NCBI RefSeq assembly: GCF_000969905.1
Contig: NZ_CP009520.1
Span: 2,604,001-2,668,000, forward strand
From: Methanosarcina vacuolata Z-761
GTDB lineage: Archaea > Halobacteriota > Methanosarcinia > Methanosarcinales > Methanosarcinaceae
Length of the DNA stretch: 64,000 bases
Reading direction: 5' to 3'
Shown here: positions 18,622 to 26,906 of the stretch, one piece after another
How positions within the stretch are numbered: position 1 is the first letter of the stretch
How the letters are laid out: every line of letters starts with the position of its first letter
Position numbers and translations under genes: made by a program
The notes under the pieces: generated by a model
Database searches by the model: none
The model's input: only the letters and a program-made list of their open reading frames with translations
Told to the model about the DNA's origin: nothing

Positions 18622-18748
18622 TTAAAGGCAGTAGCCATTGACAGTTATTGACAACTCTTGAACTCATATCATAAAAAGTTAATCAGTTGTCATTAACCAC
18701 ACAGGTTGTTTTATCGGCCATTCAGGTCAATTTTCTTTTTTAATTTTA

Positions 18749-18847
18749 TTTCAATTCGTTAATTCTTTTTTCAATTCGTTAATTCTTTTTTCAATTCGTC
18801 AATTCTTTTTTCAACTCGTTATTCTTTTTTCAATCCATTGATTCTTT
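18749..18847. repeat. 19-bp tandem repeat, about 5 copies
   Basis: TTTTCAATTCGTTAATTCTT-type units occur after the ligase gene, diverging towards the right. Confidence 0.88.
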
Positions 18848-18991
18848 TGCTCTAAAATTTCAAAGCCATTAAAAAATAAGATGTTATCAAATTTTAAATA
18901 TTGATTACATTTTTGAAGGGCATTTTAATTTGTTCTCATATCAAAAAGTGTATGATAATACAAAAACGATAGGCAATTGAATATTTGACGT

Positions 18992-19006
18992 AATTTATTA
19001 TATATA
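18992..19006 (+). promoter_or_regulatory. TATA box for the RNA candidate
   Basis: ATTTATTATATATAC is centred near 19000. The usual archaeal spacing of about 25 bases puts transcription start at about 19026, exactly where the long-range stem of the RNA candidate begins. There is no ORF downstream within 1 kb. Confidence 0.5.
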
Positions 19007-19027
19007 CGATTTCAGCATTAGAAGGTG

Positions 19028-19262
19028 TAGTTGTAAGAGAAGCGCAATAGTGCACCTTTGTGCATAGCGTATGGGGAATTTTTCTGTAGGGGTTTCATCG
19101 ATTGAGAGCTCAGGGATCAAAAGGAGCTCTCAATCAATCACCACAACCAATTAATGTCTGCACTGTGTTCTCTTGCAACTAGATGAAGAATATGAGGGAG
19201 TATTCTTCAAGGGGGTTTCACCGATTGAGAGCCCAGGGGTCATCAAAAGAGGGCTCTCAATC
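19028..19262 (+). ncRNA. candidate structured non-coding RNA with duplicated, covarying hairpins
   Basis: The region encodes no protein but folds strongly. TAGTTGTAAGAGAA (19028-19041) pairs with TTCTCTTGCAACTA (19168-19181), enclosing a TGCAC/GTGCA hairpin (19051-19064) and a 12-bp hairpin GATTGAGAGCTC/GAGCTCTCAATC (19100-19111/19124-19135). Next come GAAGAATA/TATTCTTC (19185-19192/19201-19208) and a second 12-bp hairpin GATTGAGAGCCC/GGGCTCTCAATC (19223-19234/19251-19262). The two 12-bp hairpins share flanks (GGGGTTTCA before, AATCA/AATGACC after), so they are duplicates. One T-A pair in the first is C-G in the second, a compensatory change. A TATA box lies at the right distance upstream. 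I do not recognise a known RNA family. Confidence 0.6.
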
Positions 19263-19293
19263 AATGACCAACTTTTAACTTAATTTGAAGTAC

Positions 19294-19358
19294 TTAAACT
19301 ATTTTTGATTAATAAACTATTTTGATTAATAAACTATTTTGACTAATAAACTATTTTT
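19294..19358. repeat. 17-18-bp tandem repeat, about 4 copies
   Basis: TAAACTATTTTGATTAA-type units follow closely after the RNA candidate. Confidence 0.85.
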
Positions 19359-24907: not shown

Positions 24908-24941
24908 CCTAAAAAAGAAATTCGATGTAAGAAATTAAATA

Positions 24942-25019
24942 TGGTGCTCCGGCCGGGATTCGAACCCGAGTCTTCGGCTCGAAAGGCCGGAATGATTGGC
25001 CGGACTACACTACCGGAGC
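24942..25019 (-). tRNA. tRNA-Glu (UUC), copy 1, CCA encoded
   Basis: The reverse strand gives a full cloverleaf: acceptor GCTCCGG/CCGGAGC, anticodon loop CTTTCGA (anticodon TTC), T-loop TTCGAAT, discriminator A, and CCA in the DNA. The 27-43 position of the anticodon stem is C with A, a mismatch. A TATA tract (TATATATTAC, reverse strand) sits about 35 bases upstream. The copy at 26829-26906 is identical in sequence. Confidence 0.96.
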
Positions 25020-25208: not shown

Positions 25209-26748
25209 AAAATATTGTAACTATTCAGGTAGCCTTGTTAAGGCTACACAATTTTTCCTCGTTCCGAGGAAAAATTGGATATAAAATGAACCATTTTCTT
25301 CCTTGATGAAACGTGAAGAGATTCTTGCTTTGTGTGCTTCAAACCCTGAAGTTATTGCTTATATTATAAGTCTTGAATCTCAAATTAAAGACCTCACTGA
25401 AAGATTGCAAGTTTTAGAATTTCGCTTAAATCAAAACAGCCGAAACAGCAGTAAACCTCCTTCTAGTGACTATATTTCCAAAGGAAAACCTAATCCAAAA
25501 AGTCTCCGTAAACAGAGTGGCAAGAAACCTGGAGGTCAAGAAGGTCATCCAGGAACAACTCTCGAAATGGTAGATAATCCTGATTAGGTAATAGAGCATT
25601 CTTTGAACTGTTGCGAAGAATGCGGCCAGAATCTTGAGGATGTTGAAGTTGAAGCTTATGAGGTAAGACAGGTTTTTGATATTCCGCCTGTAAATCTTAT
25701 TGTTACAGAACATCAAAGTCAGATTAAGATCTGTCCTTGCTGTGGAAGGTTAAATAAAGCTGAATTTCCAGAATCAGTAAATTCCCCAGTTCAATATGGT
25801 CCTAATATCGTAGCTTCAGCAATTTACTTTAAAAATCACCATTTCATTCCTTATAAAAGGATTTCTGAATTGTTTCATGATGTAATGGGGATAAAAATCA
25901 GTTCTGCTACCATTATTGAAGCAGAAAGAGAATGTTTCCAGAACTTGAAGAATTTGAAAACGTAATTCGAGAAAAGTACTCTCTTCTCTGTATCCATTGT
26001 GATGAAACTGGAATGAAAGTTCACGGAAAAAGACATTGGCTTCATGTAGCTTCTACTGACAAATACACTTGTTATTTTGCTCATCCGAAAAGAGGATCAG
26101 AAGCTATTGATGCTATGGGAATTCTTCCAGAGTTTAAATGGGTAGCAGTTCATGATGGATGGAAACCTTACAACGGTTATAATTGTGATCATGCTCTTTG
26201 CAATGCCCATCTCCAAAGAGAACTTATTGGAATTGAGGAGAGTTATAAACAGCAATGGGCTAAAGATATGAATGAGCTGTTATCTGAAATGAAAAAGTAT
26301 ACTGATGAGTGCAAAGAGCAGGGCAAATATCTGGATTTTGAACAAGTTAAGGCATTAGAAAAAAGGTTCGATACTGTAGTCGCGAAAGGAATTGAAGAAA
26401 ATCCACCTTCTCTAAATCCTGAAAGACAAGGAAAACGTGGTATGTATCCAAAAACCAAAGCAAGGAATCTGCTTGATAGGTTTATAGAACATAAAGAAAA
26501 GATTCTGAGATTCCTGAAAGACTTGAAAGTTCCGTTTGAGAATAATCAAGCAGAAAGAGATGTCAGGATGATGAAACTACAGCAGAAAATATCAGGAACT
26601 TTCAGAACTACACGGGGAGCGGAAGCTTTCTGCAGAATTAGAGCATATATTTCCACAATAAGAAAGAATGGTTTACCTGTTTTAGAGGGTATTCTCGCGG
26701 CGCTCAAAGGAGCGCCGCTAGCTATACCCTGAATAGTTACAAAATATT
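25209..26748 (+). mobile_element. IS66-family insertion sequence (decayed) with target duplication
   Basis: The element spans 25217-26740 and ends in GTAACTATTCAGG / CCTGAATAGTTAC inverted repeats, starting with the GTAA typical of IS66. Exact 8-bp target duplications AAAATATT lie at 25209-25216 and 26741-26748. Strong hairpins lie just inside both ends (25249-25277, 13-bp stem; 26697-26718, 9-bp stem). It is inserted between the two tRNA-Glu genes. Confidence 0.93.
25303..26732 (+). pseudogene. IS66-family transposase, interrupted
   Basis: The reading starts MKREEILALCASNPEVIAYI and contains the leucine-rich N-region. NSRNSSKPPSSD and KKPGGQEGHPG follow, then the IS66 zinc finger (CCEECGQNL and ICPCCGRLN) and the DDE domain (CDETGMKVHG, VHDGWKPYNG, NNQAERDVRMMKLQ). 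A TAG at 25585-25587 stops frame one; the same frame resumes and is read to 25965. The catalytic domain continues in another frame from about 25932 to 26732. One nonsense change and one frameshift therefore separate an otherwise complete protein. It is probably inactive, with the ends still recognisable. Confidence 0.93.
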
Positions 26749-26828
26749 TTTAAAATAGTGTATAATTTGGATCTGGACAAACCGATCAAACGTCGTGAAC
26801 TTTCACGCAATGCTTATAAAAAAGAATA

Positions 26829-26906
26829 TGGTGCTCCGGCCGGGATTCGAACCCGAGTCTTCGGCTCGAAAGGCCGGAATGATTGGCCGGACTACACTAC
26901 CGGAGC
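26829..26906 (-). tRNA. tRNA-Glu (UUC), copy 2, CCA encoded
   Basis: Identical over its whole length, including CCA and the C27-A43 mismatch, to 24942-25019. The flanks are unrelated. A 12-bp hairpin (26928-26957) lies directly upstream, where a TATA box would be expected, so its expression is uncertain. Confidence 0.95.

Follow-up and report, generated by a model that had tools for sequence, protein, structure and literature searches.

We identified in Methanosarcina vacuolata Z-761 what, judging from comparative sequence analysis, is almost certainly a stand-alone gene that encodes a structured non-coding RNA ~250 nt long and has a dedicated promoter and a genus-wide distribution. The predicted transcript covers 19027..19276 on the forward strand of the window (the whole 64,000-nt stretch of DNA that was analyzed, to whose forward strand plain coordinates refer). 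This call is supported by the fold stability (z score), the presence of the element in 26 of 31 Methanosarcina genomes, covariation and the lack of a conserved open reading frame. The RNA is built from two copies of one hairpin module and very probably acts in trans. The explanation that we favor as a whole, an RNA gene acting in trans through a protein-binding mechanism of the dosage type, is put forward tentatively.

The sequence-only reading of the window had proposed a transcript with two perfect 12-bp hairpins that differ by a single base pair, and direct reading of the sequence confirms both, at 19100-19135 and 19223-19262. The first (B1) pairs the arms GATTGAGAGCTC (19100-19111) and GAGCTCTCAATC (19124-19135), the second (B2) the arms GATTGAGAGCCC (19223-19234) and GGGCTCTCAATC (19251-19262), and the one pair that differs is U-A in B1 and C-G in B2. 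The long-range 14-bp stem that had been described alongside them and a smaller hairpin are also present. The closing stem P1 joins the 5' strand TAGTTGTAAGAGAA (19028..19041) to the 3' strand TTCTCTTGCAACTA (19168..19181), and hairpin A2 (GAAGAAUA...UAUUCUUC, loop UGAGGGAG, 19185..19208) has the arms GAAGAATA (19185-19192) and TATTCTTC (19201-19208). Hairpins of the form GATTGAG..CTCAATC occur in only one other place in the 4.56-Mb genome. The minimum free energy of 19025-19276 is -95 kcal/mol, as compared with -65 +/- 5 for dinucleotide shuffles (z = -6.0; none of 200 shuffles was as low), and in a distant species, represented by a M. mazei-like genome, the homologue has a fold z of -6.1 (L017).

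Both modules follow the same plan: a hairpin A, a GGGG(G)UU tract, a UCAUC(C) bulge, the 12-bp hairpin B with GAUUGAGAG and an AAUCACC strand. Hairpin A has the general form GAAUAU-GUGGGA-GUAUUC, and hairpin B combines a nearly invariant GAUUGAG/CUCAAUC base with a freely drifting loop. The AAUCACC strand is able to pair back with GGGGUU in a predicted outer helix (86.6% of cells over 56 modules). In the Methanosarcina RNA, module 1 lies inside P1 and module 2 follows it. Based on conservation and covariation, module 1 (19089..19142) consists of a GGGGUU/AAUCACC outer helix, the 5' bulge UCAUC and B1 (GAUUGAGAGCUC/GAGCUCUCAAUC), and module 2 (19211..19269) of a GGGGGUU/AAUGACC outer helix, a 5' bulge and B2 (GAUUGAGAGCCC/GGGCUCUCAAUC). 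The hairpin A1 position (19071..19083) is 82.5% paired where letters exist and has no compensatory change; in the window its stem is broken and the GUAUGGGGA core alone is left, whereas the M. mazei/acetivorans group has a genuine hairpin there, GAAUAC-UUGGGGA-GUAUUC.

In a blastn search of 112 Methanosarcinaceae genomes, the element occurs once or as one cluster in each of the 26 Methanosarcina genomes that carry it, at 71-94% identity, and two further genera have partial or multiple copies. The sequence-only reading had named stem changes without compensation in homologues as evidence that would count against it, and the RNA passed this check. In the 26-genome alignment, 97.3% of the cells that the proposed structure covers form standard pairs and both sides changed at 11 of 52 pairs (40 cells), values that none of 500 shuffles reached. 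Pairing falls to 37-48% when one strand is slid by one to three columns, and covariation is also seen over the 56 modules. Compensatory changes are found in P1, A2, B1 and B2 alike. P1 is paired in 98.1% of cells and changed on both sides at two pairs (for instance, from G-C to A-U in 10 genomes). A2 is 98.6% paired with two compensatory pairs (G-C to A-U in 11 genomes and A-U to G-C in three), B1 is 99.0% paired with four and B2 99.4% paired with three. The promoter and the RNA are ~75-99% identical to the window, and adjacent intergenic DNA is mostly less so. Because pairing is kept, changes are compensated and conservation exceeds that of the flanking DNA, the constraint on the stems acts on an RNA.

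Upstream of the RNA, a TATA box (TTATTATATATA, 18996-19007) forms part of a promoter conserved across the 26 genomes (18978..19007), with an upstream element TTGAATATTTGACG and a BRE/TATA region TAATTTATTATATATA. The center of the box lies ~26 nt ahead of the first stem, as had been noted from the sequence, and the promoter, start and length proposed there agree with the conserved spacing. This spacing places the predicted 5' end near 19027, 22-24 nt past the TATATATA box. Runs of four to seven T follow the second module in every genome compared, and from them we place the predicted 3' end, whose exact position is not fixed, in the T-rich tract that begins at ~19271. The promoter is specific to the locus: with up to three mismatches allowed, the string TTGAAWATTTNNCNNAATTYATTATATATA has a single occurrence in each of six Methanosarcina genomes, invariably at the RNA locus, and it also precedes all three tandem RNA genes of a genome of the sister genus g5. 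A weaker match to the promoter precedes a possible gene in genome G006 of the same genus (L194, G006:C1:1661103-1661132, minus strand), the leader of which contains several G-tract repeats of the GUGGGGAUUAUUUAAG type, similar to hairpin A and the module G tract.

The RNA gene lies between the end of an acyl-CoA synthetase gene (18621) and that of a transporter gene on the opposite strand (20254). Upstream neighbors in the window are HTH-cupin, thioesterase and acyl-CoA synthetase genes, and a M. mazei-like genome shares the upstream genes. AT-rich tandem repeats flank the RNA gene at 18740-18848 (20-bp unit, 5.6 copies) and 19295-19357 (17-bp unit, 3.6 copies). M. acetivorans and G006 have the gene order of the window plus a downstream DUF2769 gene, which is absent from the window. 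It encodes a small cysteine-rich protein and lies just 3' of the RNA gene (L067:5234-5647 and L069:6848-7141, both on the minus strand). Farther along the window there are two identical 82-bp copies of tRNA-Glu(TTC), at 24938-25019 and 26825-26906 (1,887 bp apart), with a match to PYLIS_5, the pyrrolysine insertion element of a transposase, between them (25585-25684), an arrangement suggestive of an element having inserted at a tRNA gene.

The number of modules varies between lineages. Methanosarcina has two modules in one RNA. In two genomes of genus g5 there are instead three tandem single-module genes, each with its own promoter and 5' region, located downstream of the acyl-CoA synthetase gene; a third g5 genome has two intact copies and the end of another beside masked sequence. 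In strain KYL-1 (G097), the usual RNA with two modules is accompanied ~900 nt further on by another gene that also has two, giving four modules in total. Genus g4 carries a single module, which lies elsewhere in the genome, and in one genome (G085) the RNA is on a different contig. These changes in copy number (one, two, three or four modules per genome) strengthen the earlier suggestion that one functional hairpin is present twice. In a module tree, first modules mostly cluster with first and second with second, apart from some likeness within the M. mazei group, although the alignment is short and the resolution low. The loops of hairpin B differ by 0.30 within a genome as compared with 0.38 between genomes in a comparison that ignores phylogeny, and the likeness within M. 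mazei-group genomes could reflect a shared RNA target or gene conversion.

The covariance-model search that had been proposed as a check was run with a module model (R1) across 186 genomes of the order; it found nothing else strong and no module in other genera. An exact motif scan of 84,980 genomes yielded scattered matches in unrelated organisms, at about the number expected by chance and without the module where checked. One real module was found downstream of a methanosarcinal acyl-CoA synthetase gene on a contig labeled Bacteroidales bacterium UBA1797 (L121, DCFT01000224.1), which is probably mis-binned. A single match on a viral contig reached only 19.9 bits.

Several readings of the locus other than a trans-acting RNA can be weighed against these observations. 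Inverted repeats, tandem in some genomes, could belong to a DNA element such as a mobile repeat, a CRISPR remnant or a terminator pair, yet the single locus per genome, the compensatory changes and the conserved promoter make this hardly credible. Since many M. mazei sRNAs carry translated sORFs, we also considered that the RNA might be a small mRNA or have a dual function. Single species do have short ORFs, for example ATG-initiated frames in hairpin A, but no ORF of at least 60 aa overlaps the interval, in agreement with the earlier claim that no ORF is near. Across the 26 genomes there is no conserved reading frame, no start codon has a constant frame or length, and the loops vary by one or two bases, so that a coding role is highly improbable. 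In g5 genomes and several of Methanosarcina, the RNA sits between the acyl-CoA synthetase gene and the DUF2769 gene, a position that would suit a cis element, either the 3' UTR of the acyl-CoA synthetase mRNA or the leader of the DUF2769 gene. This too we regard as very unlikely, because the RNA has its own conserved promoter, is kept where DUF2769 has been lost, as in the window, and is located elsewhere in other genomes. Action in trans is supported by two observations: the RNA changes place without its neighbors, and the acyl-CoA synthetase gene occurs widely where the RNA is absent. Together, a promoter for each gene, a series of module numbers across genera and a different locus in another genus point to a stand-alone RNA that probably acts in trans and whose module dosage varies.

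How such an RNA would act depends on what the module binds. Hardly any variation is seen in the lower stem GAUUGAG/CUCAAUC or in the UUUCA bulge, in contrast to the apical loops, which have drifted in both length and sequence. Because the stem and bulge are conserved beyond what pairing needs, sequence-specific recognition of a structured element is suggested, most simply by a protein. Each module would offer one composite surface, a nearly invariant bulged hairpin flanked by a G-tract strand, and a single RNA-binding protein most likely binds there. The RNA would then titrate or scaffold that protein in proportion to the number of modules (a single module per RNA in sister genera, two in Methanosarcina, and a total of four in the KYL-1 genome). 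We favor titration or scaffolding since module dosage varies between lineages, as expected of a binding-site RNA. However, the invariant sequence could equally well be an antisense seed and its mask. If the RNA were an antisense sRNA acting in trans, pairing with the translation-initiation regions of several mRNAs would involve its G-rich linker GGGGUUUCA, its loops (AGGGRUCA) or its AUCACC strands, and the duplication would provide two pairing sites. We consider this possible and, ranked just behind protein titration, nearly as likely. All three characterized M. mazei trans sRNAs (sRNA154, sRNA162 and sRNA41) act by pairing. The linker is nearly invariant, and AUCACC corresponds to the anti-Shine-Dalgarno tail. 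AAUCACC is similar to the end (3') of archaeal 16S rRNA, and opening of the outer helix could allow it to base-pair with GGUGAUU ribosome-binding sites. The loops of the two modules in one genome are alike, in the M. mazei group more so than expected, which also speaks against titration. On the other hand, AAUCACC is paired in the predicted outer helix and the invariant bases of hairpin B are in the stem rather than in the loop. Perfect complements of the linker and of the 3' strand of the hairpin occur at about chance frequency, with none at recurrent start sites. Perfect complements of GGGGUUUCAYC and near-complements of CAAUCAAUCACCAA gave only scattered sites, mostly within coding sequence or an apparent repeated element, and for the two strands that are most conserved the search yielded no mRNA site that was both perfectly complementary and recurrent.

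Weak R1 matches in six genomes (E ~3e-4 to 4e-3) led to a second, highly conserved structured RNA outside the window (G000:C2:3986332-3986480; L078 ~1501-1649, homologues L070-L099). It is intergenic with its own TATA box, sits between a FilR1/ArsR-type regulator and an FmdE gene, has no match in Rfam and is present in 30 of 31 Methanosarcina and all four g5 genomes. Its layout is a hairpin, GGGGUUGAAUCACNC and a GAUUGGGAGCC hairpin with a nearly invariant AUCAGAGGUGGCAAA loop, and it shares the plan of GGGGUU followed by a GAUUGGGAGCC hairpin with the two-module RNA. It may be a distant relative of the module RNA or an analogue with the same partner; homology is not established because the R1 match is weak. 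If protein titration is the right explanation, these RNAs could form a modular archaeal titration system in which the number of transcribed bulged G-tract hairpins sets the activity of an RNA-binding regulator and the second RNA is another sponge for the same protein. We regard this extension as unlikely.

Archaeal sRNAs for which the structure is defined, the evolutionary history is traced and the modules can be counted are rare. Here, 26 genomes of a single genus provide homologues, and there are a natural series of one, two, three and four modules and one dedicated promoter, so that repeated-hairpin binding in archaea becomes directly addressable in the genetically tractable Methanosarcina, and the alignment would make a new Rfam family.

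In order to relate the RNA to known families, we searched Rfam 15, as had also been proposed, and found no match above the gathering threshold; the best was RgsA, on the other strand, with 19.8 bits against a threshold of 88.4. In the literature collection that was searched, no paper gives the module sequence together with the genus name. The RNA has about an even chance of being a functionally undescribed sRNA candidate in the 2009 M. mazei dRNA-seq list, which would fit either protein titration or antisense pairing. Its conserved promoter in M. mazei-like genomes makes detection plausible, while the lack of any match in Rfam or in the literature search, and the comparisons with described sRNAs that follow, count against it.

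Like sRNA154 of M. mazei, the RNA is intergenic, Methanosarcina-wide and structured with its own promoter, and sRNA154 has two functional stem-loops. The published sRNA154, however, is ~130 nt long, maps to the interval from MM3337 to MM3338, where there is a potential NrpRI operator, and has no described repeated module. We reject identity because the architecture differs and the present RNA neighbors acyl-CoA synthetase and DUF2769/CARDB genes. The published cloning primer for sRNA154 had no match in the M. mazei-like genome G084, so it is by its published locus and architecture that sRNA154 is set apart. sRNA162 and sRNA171 of M. mazei are also homologous duplicated RNAs with compensatory changes, reported only in Methanosarcina. 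Unlike the modules described here, their copies are separate genes, 191 nt long with stem-loops SL1-SL3 and a 39-nt single-stranded linker, beside an ArsR regulator (MM2441 or MM2448); since architecture and neighbors differ, identity was again rejected. sRNA41 of M. mazei is a trans-acting Methanosarcina sRNA that masks the ribosome sites of ACDS operons, and the trans action that we infer for the present RNA would be a point of likeness. Duplex energies between this RNA and the ACDS start regions (AGGAGG sites) were within background in genomes G000 and G084, and this indirect test thus gives no support for identity with sRNA41.

Bacterial titrating RNAs of the CsrB/RsmZ type consist of repeated hairpins with G-rich motifs in loops and linkers, and the number of their sites varies. 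We know of no CsrA partner in these archaea and of no archaeal CsrA-like titration system, which counts against protein titration. There is no sequence relation, and the G tracts of the present RNA are partly paired in the outer helix, unlike those of CsrB/RsmZ. The likeness in repeated hairpins, G-rich motifs and variable number of sites is one of analogy.
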